64,000 nucleotides of DNA from Arenicola marina (lineage: Eukaryota > Annelida > Polychaeta > Arenicolidae): NCBI GenBank assembly GCA_964019135.1, contig OZ025264.1, positions 1,860,001 through 1,924,000 of the forward strand, given 5' to 3'. How positions within the stretch are numbered: the stretch's first letter is position 1; each line of letters starts with the position of its first letter. Of the stretch, positions 637 through 43,400 are shown piece by piece. Under the pieces are notes generated by a model. That model made no database searches, was not told the origin of the DNA, and saw only the letters and a program-made list of their open reading frames with translations. A program made the translations under genes and the position numbers.

Positions 637-893
637 TCCTTTTGTTTTTTTTTGTTTTTTTTTTAAAGTTAGGACAAACTTAACAGTTCATTATAGACAA
701 GCTATCCCAAAGGAACTAAATCATCAGTTAGATGTATCATATCAACAAATAACACAACCGCGTGATTAGCAACAGAGATCTTGAGAAAACTCTAAGAAAG
801 TCTCTCGCAGCTCATTGAAATTAGCTTCAGTTGAAGAAATCACAAGTGAACATAGTAAGCTTAATACCATTAAAAGGTAAGTCCACAAGATGA

Positions 894-3800
894 TTACTTA
901 TACATGACAAAGTCTTTGAACTTGGCTGGCATCTGCCTGGATCGACGAGGGCGCGCATCACACGAAGTCTCACTCGGCGTTTGGATTGACGATCGCGGTG
1001 AAAGGGTCACAGCCACTGGTTGGGCTGCTGATCGTGATCGCGTTGTCATGGTAGGATGAGACGGAGAAGCCTCAGAAACCGCAGCATCTAACACATCAGG
1101 TTGATCTCTAGCCCTAGGACTCAACGAAGGTGCGTCGGCCTCAGTCAACTGCTCTGGATCAGCACCAGGTTGAGGTTGTGAAGATTGTTTACGGATGTCG
1201 ACGCGATTTCGACGGTACAATCCACGCTCATTGGCCAATTCATAAGACCTTTCATCAAGTCTACGATTGACTGTGGCAGGGTCCCACAGCCGTTGACCTA
1301 AGACGAATGGTCTCATACGGACAGTGTCACCAGCTTCCAGTGGAGTTAAATCCTTTGCAGACTTGTTATGGTACCATGCACTCCGTTGCTGACTCTGAAG
1401 TTGCCTTCTGACCTCACGATGGTGATCAGAGTTCGTAGGTGTCAGCAACTTGGCGGTCATAGGCAAGAGACTGCGTGTACGTCGGCGAAGAAATCGTTGG
1501 ACCGGACTTGTTTCACCAGACCCTGATGGAGTATTACGTAGGTCTAGCAAAGCCAGGTAAGGATCTTTCTTTGACATCATTGCTTTCTTTATCAGACGCT
1601 TGGCAGTCTTCACTGCTGATTCAACTTTGCCATTGGATTTTGCATATCCAGGACTGGATGTACAATGTTCGATGTCCCATTTGGTTGTAAAGGTCTTAAA
1701 CTCTGAACTCGAAAACTGAGGTCCGTTGTCACTCATTATCATACTGGGGGATCCGTAACGAGCGAAATGAATTTTCAGTTTTCGGATGACAGTAGAGCTC
1801 TTGGTGTCTTCTAATCTGTCAACTTCCCAATAGTTGCTATAGTAGTCAACCGTGATTAAGTAGCTTTGGTTGGCCAACTCCATCAAATCTACTCCAACCT
1901 TCTCCCATGGTCGGTCTGTCACCTCGTGGCTCATTAGTGTTTCATTAGGTTGAGCGATGTTATACGAACTGCAAACATCACAAGCAGCGATGAAAGTTTT
2001 TAGGTCTGCATTCATCCCAGGCCAGTAAACACATTCCCTGGCACGTCGCAGTGAACTTTCTATGCCAAGATGGGATGAATGGACTGCTTCTATTACTTCA
2101 CGACGCATGCCTTGAGGAATCACAACCCTTTCCCCTTTAAAGACAAGTCCATCTTGTATGGTTAGCTCGTCTCTGATGTGGAAGTACAGCATTCCAAGGT
2201 TTGACACCTCGCTCTTGTCATCTGGCCAACCTCTCAAGATGATCTCCTTGAGGGCTGACATGGTCTCATCACTTTCCGTTGCCTGTCGGATCTTCTTTAG
2301 GCGTTCTTCTCGAATAGGAAGAAATTTTACCATGTTGACAGACTCCAGCAGATCACCACCTTCTGTATCCTTCAGATGAACCCTGGATAACGCATCAGCT
2401 ATGTGCATTTGCTTCCCAGGTTTGTAGGTGAGGGTGAAATCATACTGCTGTGCGCGAAGCAGCATCCCCTGGAGTCGCCTAGGTGCTTTACAAAGCGGCT
2501 TGTTTATGATGGTCTGTAGTGGCTTATGGTCAGAAACCACTAGAGTCAGACGTCCAAACGTGTACTGGTGAAACTTGTTCAATGAGAACAGAACAGCTAA
2601 CATCTCCTTCTCGATTTGTGCGTAACGCTGTTCAGTGTTGGTCAGTGCACGGCTCGCATAGCTAATCGGCTTGCCCTCTTGTAGCAATACACACCCTAGT
2701 CCAGTACTACTGGCGTCACACTGGATGGTCAGTGGCTTCTCGACGTCATAGTAAGCAAGCACAGGGGTGGCTGTCACCATCTGTTTAATCTTCTTGAACG
2801 CAACCTCCTGTTCCTCTCCCCAACTCCATGGCATGTCATTGATGGCCAGCTTTCTGATGGGTTTCATCACATCTGTCAGAGCAGGCAAAAACTTGGCCAG
2901 GTAGTTAATCATGCCGGACAGACTCAACACCTCAGTTGTTGTTGTTGGTGGTTGCATATTTACTATGGCAACTATCTTCTTACTATCAGGCTTGAGTCCA
3001 TCCTTTGTGATCACATGGCCGTGAAAAGAAATCTCTGTCTTTTTCAGCTCAGTTTTCTTATTGTTAAGTCTGATGCCATGCTGTTTACACCTGTCAAGTA
3101 ATTTCTTTATGTTTTCGTCGTGGTCTTTCAGAGCACTATCCATGTCCTCACCGCTCCCACACACCAAAATGTCATCTGCTATGCAGAAGATCCCAGGGAG
3201 GTTTTCTAAGGCCACTTGTAATCTCTTTTGAAAGATCTCGCTGCTTACAGCAAGTCCAAATGGTAGTCTCTTCCACCTGTACCTGCCAAAAGGTGTCTGA
3301 AATGTCGTCAGATAGCTAGATTCTTCATCAAGAATACAATGCCAGTATCCGTTTCTCAGGTCAAAAGTTGAGAAAACTTTAGCTTTCCGAAGCTCGGGTA
3401 ATATATCATCGAGAACCTTGAGGGGATGTAATTCTCTTCTAAGAGCCTTATTTAGGTCGTGTGGGTCTATACAGATTCTCAGTTCCCCACTCTTCTTCGT
3501 GCCAATCGCCATGCGACTAACCCACTCTGTAGGCTCGTCCACACGGGTGATCACATCTCTATTTTCTAATTTCTTCAGTGTTTCTTCCAGCTTTTTCTTC
3601 AGGCTCACTGGGACACGGGATGAAGAAATGGCAACAGGCTTGACTCCTTCAGTCACTGAGAGATGCACTGTGCCAGGCAGGGTACCTAATTCTTCAGTGA
3701 ATACCTCCTCGTTGTCTTTCATAGCTTCCTTCATTCCCTGGATATTCTCATAGTGTACAGTAATCAAACCCATCTGTTCGCTGGCGCGCTTGCCCAGAAG

Positions 3801-4925
3801 TGGAACGAAGGGCTGATCCACCACCAGGAACTCTATGTTATATTTTCTTCGGGTATTGACGTTGCGAATCACTGTGCGACACTTTCCAACTGGGGTTAAT
3901 TCAGATGAATTCCACATCTTCAGTGAGGTATCACATTTAATAAGCTCGGCATTTTTTACCACATGTGCAGGAACTACATTCACACTGGCTCCGCTGTCTA
4001 CTTGAAAGGATACCGTTGTACCTTCCACCTCCATGTCTGCCATGATGTCTTTGTTACCTCCTTGTGCACTAATCTTCAGTATCATTTCCACCTCTGAATC
4101 ATCTGTTTCTTCTTCTCTCAAAGTATGAACTCTTCTTTTGGGTTTTATATGACACTTCGACTTGCACTTGACTGCAAAGTGGTTGGTCAATCCACACTTC
4201 GAGCACTGTTTTCCATATGCAGGGCATTTTTCTTTACTCCACACATGTCTCTGTCCACAGAATTTACATTCTTTCAATTGATCGCGACTCATTTTCTTCT
4301 TTTTATACTTCTCATCTTGTTTGTGCTTTACCCACTGCCCTGTTTCTTCTCCATCTTCTTTGAAGATATTCATCTGCTTCTTTGACATCTGGTGTGCGAC
4401 ACAAAACTGAATCGCTCTCTCCAGAGTCAATTCATCAGCTTTCAGAAGTTTCTCTCTTAAATGATCATCAGCACATCCAAATACAATTTGGTCTCTGATA
4501 AGTTTCTCTCGCTGACCTTCAAAGTTGCAGTCCTTGGATAGAATCTTCAGACGAGTGATAAAAGCGTCTAACAGTTCTCCTGGTCTCTGTTTACTTTCAT
4601 GAAACTTGAACCGGGCTGCAATCTCATTTTTTCGTGGCGTGAAGTATGTGTCAAATCTAAGCAATACTGAAGCGAGGACGTTGGCTTGGTTTGGTTGATC
4701 CACTTCAGGTATAGGAAACTCAAACGAGTTGTACAGCTCTAGCAAGTCATCACCACCACAGGTAAGTAAAATAGCCACTTTTTCTTCTTCTGTTTTACCT
4801 GCAGCTCCACTGGCTAACAGGTATAAGTTAAACTTCTGTTTAAACAATTTCCAGCTATGCTCAGCATCGCTGGTCAGTGACATTTTACCTGGTGGGTTTA
4901 TGCTAGACTGTGAAAATTGAGCCAT
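894..4925 (-). CDS. Gag-pol polyprotein of the LTR element (1343 aa)
   Basis: A single frame carries both gag and pol. Approximate residues: gag capsid-like region 1-200; two cysteine/histidine zinc knuckles 220-256; aspartic protease with DSGAS at 310; reverse transcriptase with the catalytic IADD motif (in place of YVDD) at 582-585; RNase H with CDASS at 736; integrase zinc-binding His/Cys module at about 945-985; integrase core with D at about 1013, SDNGPQF near 1065 and the E of KVESA near 1102. The C-terminus is rich in R, S and P, as in the tail of many Gypsy integrases. The products would act in a cytoplasmic virus-like particle (gag, PR, RT) and in the nucleus (integrase). Gag and pol are in one frame, so no frameshift between them is needed. 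It is treated here as an old virus-like element and not as a host gene. Confidence 0.95.
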   Translation of the reverse strand: MAQFSQSSINPPGKMSLTSDAEHSWKLFKQKFNLYLLASGAAGKTEEEKVAILLTCGGDDLLELYNSFEFPIPEVDQPNQANVLASVLLRFDTYFTPRKNEIAARFKFHESKQRPGELLDAFITRLKILSKDCNFEGQREKLIRDQIVFGCADDHLREKLLKADELTLERAIQFCVAHQMSKKQMNIFKEDGEETGQWVKHKQDEKYKKKKMSRDQLKECKFCGQRHVWSKEKCPAYGKQCSKCGLTNHFAVKCKSKCHIKPKRRVHTLREEETDDSEVEMILKISAQGGNKDIMADMEVEGTTVSFQVDSGASVNVVPAHVVKNAELIKCDTSLKMWNSSELTPVGKCRTVIRNVNTRRKYNIEFLVVDQPFVPLLGKRASEQMGLITVHYENIQGMKEAMKDNEEVFTEELGTLPGTVHLSVTEGVKPVAISSSRVPVSLKKKLEETLKKLENRDVITRVDEPTEWVSRMAIGTKKSGELRICIDPHDLNKALRRELHPLKVLDDILPELRKAKVFSTFDLRNGYWHCILDEESSYLTTFQTPFGRYRWKRLPFGLAVSSEIFQKRLQVALENLPGIFCIADDILVCGSGEDMDSALKDHDENIKKLLDRCKQHGIRLNNKKTELKKTEISFHGHVITKDGLKPDSKKIVAIVNMQPPTTTTEVLSLSGMINYLAKFLPALTDVMKPIRKLAINDMPWSWGEEQEVAFKKIKQMVTATPVLAYYDVEKPLTIQCDASSTGLGCVLLQEGKPISYASRALTNTEQRYAQIEKEMLAVLFSLNKFHQYTFGRLTLVVSDHKPLQTIINKPLCKAPRRLQGMLLRAQQYDFTLTYKPGKQMHIADALSRVHLKDTEGGDLLESVNMVKFLPIREERLKKIRQATESDETMSALKEIILRGWPDDKSEVSNLGMLYFHIRDELTIQDGLVFKGERVVIPQGMRREVIEAVHSSHLGIESSLRRARECVYWPGMNADLKTFIAACDVCSSYNIAQPNETLMSHEVTDRPWEKVGVDLMELANQSYLITVDYYSNYWEVDRLEDTKSSTVIRKLKIHFARYGSPSMIMSDNGPQFSSSEFKTFTTKWDIEHCTSSPGYAKSNGKVESAVKTAKRLIKKAMMSKKDPYLALLDLRNTPSGSGETSPVQRFLRRRTRSLLPMTAKLLTPTNSDHHREVRRQLQSQQRSAWYHNKSAKDLTPLEAGDTVRMRPFVLGQRLWDPATVNRRLDERSYELANERGLYRRNRVDIRKQSSQPQPGADPEQLTEADAPSLSPRARDQPDVLDAAVSEASPSHPTMTTRSRSAAQPVAVTLSPRSSIQTPSETSCDARPRRSRQMPAKFKDFVMYK

Positions 4926-5047
4926 CTTCTATCTTCTTTTCTGCTTTATTTAACTTCTTTCTTTATCTTCTTTCTCTTCTTTCTTTATCTTCTCTATTCA
5001 CCTCTCTTCATTCTTCTTGCTAATTTGACTTTACCACGCTGCCACCA

Positions 5048-5805: not shown

Positions 5806-6540
5806 GGACGTGCGTTATGTTGGACAAACAAGTCGGTCAAACAAAGCAGCATGTCGCTTTGTTGTCAGGTTCAGAGATGAGTACTTCTCACAATGTCTAC
5901 CATCAGCTATGATTGTCTATTTCTTGCTCACAATGAAGGAAAAGGACTTAAGCGTAGGCGGGGCTTCATGTCGGAGCCTGGATCGGTCTATTACCCCACC
6001 TTACTCCACCGTAGGGTGAGAATGACGTAAAATGATAAATCCGGATTATGTTTTCGGTCCACTACAATGACCTTGACCTTAACAATTGACTTGACTGTGA
6101 TTTTATTTGTGACGTATTTGGGCCCTTAGATCCAGATTGACCTCTCAGATCTATATTTGATAACTCTATATTTGTAGTAGGCCCACACTGCACTGGCACC
6201 GCGGTCTCTGTCACCGCTCGCGACAGTCCAGAGCCTCGCTGTAATGTTGTTATGATAAGCAAATTAGTGAGCCGTCGCATTTTGTTATGATGTGATAAGG
6301 CATGCCGTGGTGTGGGAGCCCTGACTGTCACCAGGCGGTTGATGTCGGCCAGGTGTTTCAAATAGTTAATAGCTCTCGTCCCATGTTAAAGATGGTGAAT
6401 TTTTGCAGGAGATTCCTGTGACCTTGACCTTTGACCTACATACCCCGCTAACAAACTTGACAGAGCCATGTCGGATACCTATCGATACTATCGATAGGTA
6501 AAGTTACAGAACGCAATGTTGCGTTTTGCGACCTGCAGGT
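5806..6540 (+). repeat. Composite dispersed repeat (reference copy)
   Basis: Blocks of this stretch recur elsewhere in the window. 5806-5855 plus 5945-5995 match 37025-37110 on the other strand. 5998-6110 and 6410-6535 match 40908-41079 (shared words include ATGACGTAAAATG, CGGTCCACTACAATGA and ATGTTGCGTTT). 6125-6160 resembles 43370-43445 (GATCCAGATTTGACC-like). It looks like an old non-coding mobile repeat with internal rearrangement. Its right end at about 6510-6540 is an uninterrupted version of the site into which the 41080-43327 transposon inserted. Confidence 0.6.
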
Positions 6541-10133: not shown

Positions 10134-10660
10134 TTGGTAGCGGTCTGAGTACCCCAGTCTAAAATTGTCCACCTGTGAGGCCATACTATGGCTACAAGCA
10201 TGAATTTTTTTTCGGCACGGTACCATTCCAGCACGGCTGGTAGCGGTCCGAGATTACCCCAGACTGAAATTGTCCACCTGTGCGGCCATACTACGGCTAA
10301 AACCATAAAAACATTTCCGGCAAGGTACAATTCCAGCACGGCTGGTAGCGGTCTGATATTACCCCCGTCTGAAATTGTCTCTTTAGGCGGCCCTACTATG
10401 GCTAAAAGCATGAAAATATTTTCGGCACGGTACAATTCGGGCACGGCTGGTAGCGGTCTGAAATTATCCACGGTCTAAAATTGTCTGCCTGGGCGGCCAT
10501 ACTATGGCTAAAAGCATGAAAACATTTTCGGCACGGTACAATTCCAGTACGACTTGTAGCGGCCTGAAATTATCCCAGTCTGAAATTGTCTCACTGGGCG
10601 GCCCTACTATGGCTAAAAGCATGAAAACACTTTCAGCACGGTTACAATTCCAGACCGTTA
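10134..10660. repeat. Tandem array of about 105-bp units, five copies
   Basis: Each unit starts near CTGGTAGCGGTCTGA and ends near TTCCAGCACGG. Unit starts lie at about 10134, 10237, 10342, 10447 and 10553, so the period is 103-106 bp. Units differ by scattered substitutions. Open frames of about 100 aa cross the array on both strands only because the period is a multiple of three; I regard them as non-coding. Confidence 0.9.
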
Positions 10661-24726: not shown

Positions 24727-24975
24727 GGGGGTGGGGGGGAACGGGTATTTCCCATTTCTCGGGAATGCGTTTCCCATTTCACTGTAAACTAGGAGTAAAA
24801 AAAAAAACTTCCGGGAACTGGAAATGCGGATTGGGAATTTTAATATTAAATAACCGTAAATCGGGAAATCGCCAATTTGTTATCATGCTTCCGCCCGAAT
24901 GCGGGGAGTTCCCCTTTTCAGCTTAATCGGGAATACTGACATTTATTCTTCGTGATCTGGGAACAGGACCTCCTC
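24727..24975 (-). repeat. Dispersed 'ATTCCCAGTTC' repeat, copy 1 (rearranged)
   Basis: Related to 34022-34226 and 42509-42712. On the minus strand it begins GGGCGGAAGCATGATAAC, has GCCGATTTCCC-like and TTTAATATTAAAATTCCC blocks, and ends near CATTCCCGAGAAATGGG. Part of the middle block lies outside the expected order, so this copy is rearranged. Confidence 0.7.
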
Positions 24976-32132: not shown

Positions 32133-32227
32133 CTTAACGCCCATGTGAGTAAAGTATAATCTCCATAAGGCGAACGTGCTTGGGGCAGAGCCGATATATA
32201 TAAACTGCGTGCCCCAAATAAAAAATC

Positions 32228-32513
32228 TATATACATTACATGCCTAAAATATATCAATGTATATACATTACATGCCTCAAATATATCAATGTATATAAAT
32301 TGCATGCACCAAATATTTCAATGTATATAAATTGCTTGCACTAAATATTTCAATGCATATACATTACATGCCTCAAATATATCAATATATATAAATTGCA
32401 TGCACCAAATATTTTAATGTATATAAATTACATGCCTGAAATATATCAATGTATATAAATTGCATGCACCGAATATATCAATGTATATAAAATGCATGCA
32501 CCAACAGCAATGT
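32228..32513. repeat. AT-rich 32-bp tandem repeat, about nine units
   Basis: Units read TATATAAATTGCATGCACC-AAATAT.TCAATG with two alternating sub-types (ATTGCATGCACC and ATTACATGCCT). The array lies about 95 bp upstream of the first recognised exon of gene A. Confidence 0.9.
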
Positions 32514-34021: not shown

Positions 34022-34226
34022 AGGGCGGATACAAGATACTAAATTGACGATTTCCCGCAGCACGGTAATTTTATATCAAAATTCCTAGTTCACGATTAAT
34101 GAAAATCCGTGATCAAGGCTGTCGGCTAATACCCCATTCCTAGTTCACGAAGAATTATTTTCCTCATTCCAAGTTCACAGTGAAATGAAAAGCCCAATCC
34201 CGAGTAACGCAAATACCCCTTGACCC
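34022..34226 (+). repeat. Dispersed 'ATTCCCAGTTC' repeat, copy 2
   Basis: It starts GGGCGGATACAAGAT, carries TTCACGAAGAATTATTTTCC, CAGTGAAATGAAAAGCCC and ATACCCCTT, and is closely similar to 42509-42712. It is non-coding. Confidence 0.85.
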
Positions 34227-40400: not shown

Positions 40401-43400
40401 ATTTCCCTGCTGTTGTTTGGCCCAAGAGAACGAGAACTGTTTCTAGCCTGTGCATGAAAAGATCCTGTTCTGTGACGTTATGCATTACCCATTGTCTTGT
40501 CGGCATAATTGAGTACTGCACTCAGGTGATATATACTCTCGCATGCCCACAATATCGGTTCCAGGCTTTCACTGCTAAGCATCAGGAACTCGTATCTGGC
40601 AAGGGTCAAACCGCCGGCGCTAAATCGGAAGAAACTATAACTAAGTCAATGTAAGGTGGGTTTCAATGCCTTAAAAAAAATGGCCCAATAATAAAGAACG
40701 TTTCATAGCGCGCAAACACGTCTGTAGCGAGATTGGTAGAGACTAGAATATATATATATACATGTATATATATGGATTGATTTACTGTATTTATAGATTA
40801 TTGCGTCCTTATTTACCAACCTAAGAAATAACGCGAGCAAGTGCGTAATTTGCTGAAGATATTGATATTGTGTTAAATGTTAATATCGACTACTAAACGA
40901 GATTGCGTCACCCGTAGCGTGAGATGACGTAAAATGTAAAATAAAGATTATGTCTTCGGTCCACTACAATGAACTTGATCTTATCAGTTGACTTGACTGT
41001 GACTTTGACCTGTGACCTACAGACCCCGTTAACGAACTTGCTTGCGATGAGTAAATTTATACGACGAAATGTTGCGTTTCCCAGCCAGCATGGCAACCAT
41101 CTGCCAACCGTGAAACAACGTTGTCGGCAATGTTGGCTCAATGTCGGCAAAGAACATTGGGCCAACGAGTGGGTGCTCATTGGGGAATGATTGTTTCAAC
41201 GTTGTCTGCCAACAATGGCCCAACCATCTGCCAACCTTGGGCCAACATTAGCTGCCAACGATGGCCCAACCATAGGCCAACAGTGGGCCAATGTGCCAAT
41301 TTGTTAGCTTAATATTTCTGGAACCCTGTTAAAGGCAATACAGTGGTAGCCACATACAAACTAATGATACTGTTCATAATTTGCAGTTGGCAGGATTTTT
41401 TGACAGATCTGTCATATCACGTTGAATAGGTAACGCAAATGAGTTAAGTAGACAGTGGGAAAAGTGGAAATCCTCATCTTATCAGAAGAATACAGCCACA
41501 CTTACCATACACCACCTGGCGTAAGTTTAGGCGAGGGAATGGCACTTTCCCACTCTTCCATTGCCAATGTATTTGCTTTGCCACACTGTTTGACAGCACT
41601 TAGTCCATCAAACGCTGCACTGTCTTGTCGAAAGTGGATACGCCAATCAAGGTGATGCTGCTGACCTAATTGGACATATGCAAAATAAAGAGTCAAACTG
41701 AAGATAAAATAGACATAAATTAAATTACACAAAGCAATACAAAAACATAGACAAACCTATGAGAACTGAAAATGCTGGTCTCTTATTCGTGCATACTTGA
41801 CTAAAATTGGGCCAGTGGAAGCTTTTGGGGCAACAAAATGATGATGAATGAAATATGCCCCATATGGGGACTGTCCACTAAACCATGGATGCCTTGATCT
41901 CTAGTCCAGTACACTGACCAATAGACTAAGGGGGTTCTCTGAGACTTATGTATAGCTGTGTTTTGTGTGGCCAGGCTTTAACAGCAAAAAACATTAATCG
42001 TTAAATATTACAGCATACCGTTTTCCACACGGTCTCGTCATTAGCGAGGACCTCGTCCAATGTGTGTAGGGCATCTACGTTCAGGATGGGGAAGGGCATT
42101 CCATCTGGCGGAGGGGTTGGCGTGCAAGTCATGTTGAGATGCTGGCAAATTTTGCCAAGCATCACACCATTGTGCTCCTGCTGCTGTTGCACGCGCTCCA
42201 AAGCGCGTAGGAGGGCAATATCATACTCTGTCACTGTCAATGAAATTTAAACAGACTGTAAAACAAAATGTGAACAGCATACTATTATAGGTAACACTAT
42301 AACCACTTGGCCTAACTAAATAAAATGATCTCTTAGTTCCACGAGAAAATAATTCATATCAACATAAAGTTCAGAATACATCGGCAGATATATAGTTCTG
42401 ACCACCCACCCAGATATGTGTTCTCTATATTTGTCTACACCCTTCTTCTTTTGGACCAATAGGAATAATCCATTTATATTTTCCATAATTATGTGCCTTG
42501 TTTAATAAGGGGCGGATACATGATATAAATTGGCCATTTCCCAATTCAGAGTTATTTAATATTAAAATTCCCAGTTCACGATTAATGAAAATACTCGATC
42601 ACTGCTGTCGGCTAATATCCCATTCCCAGTTCACGAAGAATTATTTTCCTCATTCCCAGTTCAGTGAAATGAAAAGCCCATTCCCGAGGAACGGAAATAC
42701 CCCTTGCCCCATCCCTAATAAGTTTAATGACATCAAAACCTTCAGCCAGGGGCAGGCTAGCTGGTCAAACACTGTGGTAAGATTAAAGTAAATCGTTTGA
42801 AGTGCTATTCAAGCCTTCACCTGCCCATGGCTAAAGTTTTTGCACTGGTTTGACAGTGTTTGATTTTAAGAAAAGAGCTCCAAAAAAGCTAGGCACTCGT
42901 GTGAGCGATAATACAGGAACGGTCAGAAACTGCATACTCAGTGACCGTTTTCTTCCGCTGTACCATTATATTACAGTTCTAATTAAGTCAGTGCATAAAT
43001 TACATAATCCGATACTATAAAACAGACCGACAAGACAATAATAAAGCGCCAAATGAATCAAAATCTCAAAATTTTCGATAACTTACAGTCACTTGGAAAA
43101 TTGCCGCATGGAAGTGTCGCTTCAAAAACTCGCTAGATGGCGCTGTGTTTTGCGCTAACGGCAGTACGCTGGTACGTAGGCGCAATGTTGGGCCAACATT
43201 CCATTGCCAACGGTTTGGTGCAGAGCGCAGATGACGGTCGGTATTACGTTGCGCCTATGTATACTAGCAAACGGCTGCGTTGCCTACCTAAAAACAACGT
43301 TGGGCCGATAATGCCATGCTGGCTGGGTTTGTGGCCTACACAGAGTGCACAGACACACCCTGAGATCCAGATTTGACCAATCAAATTCGTATTTAGCCTC

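Follow-up and report, generated by a model that had tools for sequence, protein, structure and literature searches.

The window, a stretch of 64,000 nucleotides of the Arenicola marina genome (GCA_964019135.1, contig OZ025264.1, positions 1,860,001 to 1,924,000, forward strand), contains at 41080-43327 an element bounded by 16-bp inverted ends (41080-41095 and 43312-43327) that are 100% complementary to each other. The termini, CCCAGCCAGCATGGCA, are of the 5'-CCC..GGG-3' type and so begin with the CCC proposed for animal TRC elements. The initial annotation had described perfect ends of this length around a discrete insertion, and the locus bears out both: this is a TIR element, repeated in the genome and flanked by a target duplication. 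Its features, and a related site elsewhere in the window, are as follows.

6492..6537, plus strand: empty-site paralogue, a relative of the target repeat that has no interruption, from alignment to the rejoined target
41078..41079, no strand: left copy of the 2-bp target duplication (TT), from flank comparison of insertions
41080..41095, plus strand: left TIR, 16 bp, beginning CCCAGC, 100% complementary to the right end
41094..41296, plus strand: left subterminal GTTGG[CG]/[CG]CCAAC array with periods of ~11 and 22 bp (repeat rows 41205-41291 and 41208-41291)
41297..41299, no strand: junction of a ~452-bp deletion relative to L002 that removed exon C (query gap at 217/221 in other copies)
41506..41665, minus strand: predicted DUF4806-like exon B, in which the domain match continues, with an in-frame stop (predicted splicing; profile match)
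41666..42018, minus strand: predicted GT-AG intron 1 of the DUF4806-like gene, its donor at the same codon as in the transposase-linked L081
42019..42233, minus strand: predicted DUF4806-like exon A, where the domain match begins, with its frame open (predicted GT-AG splicing; L081 homology)
43180..43311, plus strand: right subterminal motifs (GTTGGGCCAAC and variants), from direct-repeat comparison
43312..43327, plus strand: right TIR, 16 bp, from inverted-repeat comparison
43328..43329, no strand: right copy of the 2-bp target duplication (TT), from flank comparison of insertions

The full-length element measures ~2.7 kb, as in the copy L002, and the window copy is shorter than L002 by ~452 bp, with which the third DUF4806-like exon, C, has gone. 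Elsewhere in the window, an uninterrupted 1344-aa frame at 897-4928 (minus strand) has RVT_1, RNase H, Integrase_H2C2 and rve matches, and we take it to be a Ty3/Gypsy-type retrotransposon polyprotein; tandem arrays lie at 10135-10653 (105/211-bp periods) and 32197-32504 (32/96-bp periods).

The genome searches score the best candidates only, so that all counts given here are lower bounds. Within the 867-Mb genome the left end has 159 matches at no more than one mismatch (84 + 75) and the right end 174 at no more than two (84 + 90), and reversed-pattern controls for both ends returned none. When the best 100 of the 159 left ends were considered, 64 could be paired with a right end no more than 12 kb away, in either orientation, and 48 of these 64 pairs were spaced 2.5-2.9 kb among the matches listed. 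A DNA search that scored the best 40 of 3870 initial candidates recovered main pieces 95-100% identical to the element. Comparison of 26 copies with their majority sequence gave identities of 97.6-99.4%, which indicates recent transposition; the family is young, and two older lineages, L040 and L041, are 88-90% identical. At 34023-34226 and 24735-24896 the window also holds a 204-bp stretch (87%) and two shorter pieces (79-85%) resembling positions 616-818 of L002 on its minus strand, an internal non-coding part, possibly another repeat that was nested in its ancestor.

The length of the target duplication was assessed in 27 copies with both ends, 3 of which were left out as their right flank was that of another copy. 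The 24 distinct insertions show a 2-bp repeat in 21 cases, a 3-bp repeat in one (the window copy) and a 4-bp repeat in none, with neither a 2- nor a 3-bp repeat at three insertions (L009, L014 and L018); mismatched pairs of left and right flanks, used as a control, show a 2-bp repeat in 43 of 552. The duplications comprise eleven different dinucleotides and there is therefore no fixed target. The TTT noted initially is indeed present on both sides of the window copy, but a 3-bp duplication occurs at that one insertion only and was rejected as the family's signature. The uninterrupted relative of the target, which had been placed near 6.5 kb, was found at 6492-6537, where 46 bp spanning the junction align without gaps to the rejoined target (36/46 identical, 78%), and the four consecutive T within it accord with a 2-bp duplication.

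Within the element, exons A and B join in frame across the GT-AG intron on the minus strand; exon C is present in L002 and, by tblastn, in a longer copy, L079. The Pfam profile PF16064 (DUF4806) scores 12.2 bits (E 0.24) against the 81-aa frame that contains exon A, 21.4 bits (E 0.00032, profile positions 3-69 of 90) against the joined window exons with X at the stop, and 19.3 bits (E 0.0014) against the three exons of L002, neither of the joined products reaching the curated cut-off of 25 bits. By these scores the gene product would be a partial or divergent relative of DUF4806 and not a member by the Pfam rule. The DUF4806 gene recognized in the initial annotation is thus upheld as a profile match, but one that lies below the cut-off and is broken by the stop in exon B. 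That stop is found in all 26 aligned copies and at all 27 loci with exon B among 30 left-end loci from which sequence was taken 1.5 kb inward, two sets that overlap and that include L040 and L041; the single exception is L079, whose exon B is without it. The presence of exon B at 27 of these 30 loci speaks against the prospect that elements with the same ends never carry DUF4806.

To judge by variation within the family, the gene looks like a relic. The exons are conserved no better than the introns, with pairwise differences of 2.55-2.79% and 1.26-2.63% respectively (22 of 26 copies, L001, L020, L022 and L025 being left out), and the 68 amino-acid-changing and 35 silent variants do not depart clearly from the ratio of 2.56 expected under neutrality (p 0.19). 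A shared stop and the lack of clear selection within the family would also suit a Pack-type capture, in which a CACTA-like non-autonomous element acquired the 3' part of a DUF4806 gene of the host, introns and all, and then spread it as a passenger, and the retained introns and the failure to recognize a 5' part of the gene are also in keeping with such an event. We return to this possibility below with the relatives of the gene. Searched with PF16064, the genome gave no matches at E 0.001, and a limit relaxed to E 10 brought up 11 weak pieces, all of them below the cut-off; introns that split the domain are the likely reason.

We conclude that the family is non-autonomous; the internal Transposase_21 gene that marks an autonomous TRC/CACTA element was not found in the copies analyzed. 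The window copy has no frame longer than 100 aa, and L002, L026 and L028 have none of 110 aa or more. Longer copies had been proposed as the place to look for a transposase, but five frames of L079 (6.2 kb, C7:41.25 Mb) match no Pfam family. This copy was considered as an autonomous element and rejected, as its extra 3.5 kb (~656-4177) has on either side a short repeat ending ATTAAA, recognized by eye, and is therefore taken as a nested insertion. For the genome at large we used as the tblastn query L067, a Transposase_21-type ORF of 758 aa (best 59 of 245 candidates scored), and compiled a set of 59 transposase loci from its tblastn matches together with those to PF02992 and PF06869. PF02992 is passed by L067, L062, L059 and L072, and PF06869 gives 16 genomic matches at E up to 0.1. 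D189, D274 and E528, together with C293/C296 and H504/H508, are invariant in an alignment of seven ORFs of the L067 kind; the two aspartates and the glutamate would be the catalytic residues. Among 200 listed ends of the window family (100 of 159 left, 100 of 174 right) the nearest transposase locus is 10.7 kb away, with 59 of the 245 candidates scored, and the TIRs of the family were not found within the 1.5-kb flanks of 20 PF02992 loci.

Two of the weak PF16064 pieces, L080 (C5) and L081 (C14), are themselves repeated, L080 at 10 dispersed places (86-100% identical, with the intron kept) and L081 at 8 places, 3 of them ~100% and 5 at 90-92% identical. Exon A is 48.6% identical to L081 over 72-74 residues, without gaps and with shared splice positions, and the differences between the two fall at 22, 9 and 45 first, second and third codon positions over 71 codons, a pattern that marks past selection on the protein, over much of the period since the two lines diverged. 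With the L081 exon as the tblastn query (best 150 of 211 candidates scored), the places found divide into 8 of the L081 type, 12 of a second type (59-60% identical to L081) and 130 others (44-52%), many of which coincide with known copies of the window family. A local cluster of seven exon A-like DUF4806 stretches, 50% identical to L081, lies at C462:55518-133874.

At 6 of the 20 L081-like places (8 + 12) a transposase lies upstream on the same strand. The L081-type exons on C14 and C19 are 2.5-2.6 kb from it, edge to edge, and the second-type exons on C6, C10, C225 and C1 are 3.3-3.4 kb from it, so measured; the latter four are related to the family through their 60% identity to L081 and not by comparison with exon A. 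The six pairs are located at C14:291-295 kb, C19:8.373-8.378 Mb, C6:9.706-9.712 Mb, C10:17.281-17.287 Mb, C225:460-465 kb and C1:6.751-6.756 Mb. Shifting the places by 0.1-2 Mb gave a mean of 0.07 linked places and a maximum of 2 in 10,000 runs, a control that treats places as independent where copies may have been co-inherited, and because the six comprise two exon types they do not represent six independent events. For the other 14 of the 20 places, no transposase turned up within 10 kb when the best 59 of 245 candidates were scored, and 1 of the 130 other exon places has one within 15 kb, at 12.1 kb. The six linked frames are 34-36% identical to L067 over ~380 residues (E up to 4e-41, tblastn); they have no PF02992 match at E 0.001 and no PF06869 match at E 0.1, the frame on C19 contains a stop, and the ORFs in which the DDE, C(2)C and H(3-4)H motifs of CMCT transposases were recognized are the seven of the L067 kind. 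Distance and strand suggest that transposase and DUF4806-like gene may lie between one pair of ends. One of the 10 L080-like places, at C176:195355-197780, has a transposase 1.0 kb from the exon but on the other strand, in a layout unlike that of the six same-strand pairs; the transposase match is 99% identical to residues 368-758 of L067.

These data bear on the origin of the gene. The nearest relatives found are multi-copy, and exon relatives adjoining transposases speak against a chance capture from the host, which had been named as an outcome that would undo the proposal and which is probably not how the gene arose. A single-copy parent gene, as the Pack-type event described above calls for, is not evident among the best 150 of 211 candidates, where one could have been missed, and we regard that event as unlikely. 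The linkage could itself be secondary, if transposons landed near a multi-copy DUF4806 family and the composites were then duplicated with segments of the genome. Some of the places are clustered, with five on C10 at 16.9-17.3 Mb, and the linked ones fall into two exon types; set against this, the pairs on C14, C19, C6, C10, C225 and C1 share order, strand and a near-constant spacing within each type, and a second lineage, L080, is likewise dispersed with its intron included. We therefore hold secondary linkage to be quite improbable. The initial proposal that DUF4806 genes travel within transposons accordingly gains from the exon relatives near transposases, but the copy carried by the window family is broken and the L080-like case has its transposase on the other strand.

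The subterminal regions supply a further character. In L002 the motif GTTGG[CG] occurs 9 times in the left 300 bp, 5 times in the right 200 bp and twice in the 2198-bp middle, whereas letter shuffles of the two ends (20 each) contain 0-1 and 0-2; L002 thus has the subterminal repeat arrays known from TRC/CACTA elements. By analogy, the DUF4806 protein may bind these arrays. The half-sites TTGG and CCAA are also found in GTTGGGCCAAC, in swapped order, which we record as a lead only. Subterminal arrays, together with the carried gene, point to CACTA also when mobilization by a different superfamily is considered, such as a Plavaka-like one that likewise makes 2-bp duplications, the connection to CACTA then being limited to the gene carried. 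No transposase was found with the exact ends of the window family, these ends are not 5'-CA..TG-3', and PlavakaA does generate 2-bp duplications (PMC12730594). The termini of PlavakaA, however, are TGT..ACA (PMC12730594), and animal TRC elements are reported with CCC ends and 2-bp repeats (PMC1636069), so that mobilization by such a superfamily seems very improbable.

The linkage at the L081-like places, taken with the lack of a transposase locus within 10 kb of the family's 200 listed ends, argues for a non-autonomous family whose gene came from a two-gene transposon line. We consider it likely that the element is a non-autonomous derivative of an animal TRC-type CACTA transposon, descended from a line with a transposase and a DUF4806 gene. 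Both genes of the ancestor would have lain on the same strand, with the spliced DUF4806 gene downstream of a DDE transposase related to Transposase_21. The window family would then have lost the transposase and retained the last three DUF4806 exons, broken by the stop, the window copy having lost the last of these as well. Its movement would be by cut-and-paste, with a transposase from elsewhere in the genome acting on the 5'-CCCAGC ends and integration leaving the 2-bp duplication, and TRC-type elements of the same genome could supply the proteins in trans. The DUF4806 protein is perhaps the animal counterpart of plant TNPA, which would bind the GTTGG[CG] repeats and join the ends; we know of no relation between TNPA and DUF4806. 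A transposition system not yet described, as first envisaged, is not called for, since the ends and duplication match those of animal CACTA/TRC elements and the linked transposases are homologues of the Transposase_21 type.

Most likely, then, DUF4806 is the second gene of CACTA/TRC-type transposons in this genome. That DUF4806, a BEN-type domain, serves animal CACTA/TRC elements at large as the second protein, the one that binds the ends, and so is the missing counterpart of TNPA, is a bolder generalization that we put forward tentatively and that may well fail. If it is true, the many-copy DUF4806 genes of Hydra, zebrafish and beetles would be transposon genes or domesticated from them. The proposal links a multi-copy domain of unknown function to a known class of transposon and suggests a testable role in binding end repeats. 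Should the link hold, lists in which DUF4806 figures among host genes need correcting, and DUF4806 families would serve as markers of past CACTA activity.

In the literature, DUF4806 is multi-copy in several animals (PMC7642931, PMC13270666), and a paper on Hydra tabulates it among over-represented domains, alongside transposase domains. Passages on the domain in the open-licence literature do not assign it to a transposon, and among the matches listed there no title joins DUF4806 or BEN with CACTA. DUF4806/BEN-type proteins of animals have been discussed as chromatin genes, with a BEN-like DNA-binding fold that is taken there from cited literature (PMC11075544); the gene described here has the PF16064 match in common with them and is instead linked to transposases. 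An accessory gene riding with a transposase has a parallel in the fungal TET/JBP genes, which accompany transposases including those of CMCT, although both the accessory protein and the hosts differ from the DUF4806 case (PMC12730594). CMCT transposases (EnSpm, Transib and their kin) have DDE residues and C(2)C and H(3-4)H motifs, and in most lineages the termini are 5'-CA..TG-3', unlike the 5'-CCC..GGG-3' of the window element (PMC12730594).

Plant CACTA/En-Spm elements, with TNPA and TNPD, resemble the system proposed here in their subterminal repeats, in the pairing of a transposase with a second protein and in their non-autonomous derivatives, but the plant element described has CACTA ends and a 3-bp duplication, unlike the window family (PMC2613891). 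TNPA binds the subterminal repeats, and both plant proteins can serve deletion derivatives in trans (PMC2613891). The window element resembles TRC, whose members include SmTRC1 of Schistosoma and elements of Aedes and Tribolium, with 2-bp repeats and a suggested CCC core for the animal elements, for example the Aedes end CCCAGTCAAC, to be compared with the end of the window element, CCCAGCCAGC (PMC1636069). A TIR with a CCC core, 2-bp repeats and truncated copies are all shared with the window family (PMC1636069). SmTRC1 produces a single transcript with a second ORF after the Transposase_21 ORF, and its authors expected the second protein, PrA, to act as TNPA does; the 2006 TRC paper reports no detectable relatives of PrA in other TRC elements (PMC1636069). 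The two systems differ in that the window family was found without a transposase and in that the second gene, PrA in SmTRC1, is DUF4806-like here.
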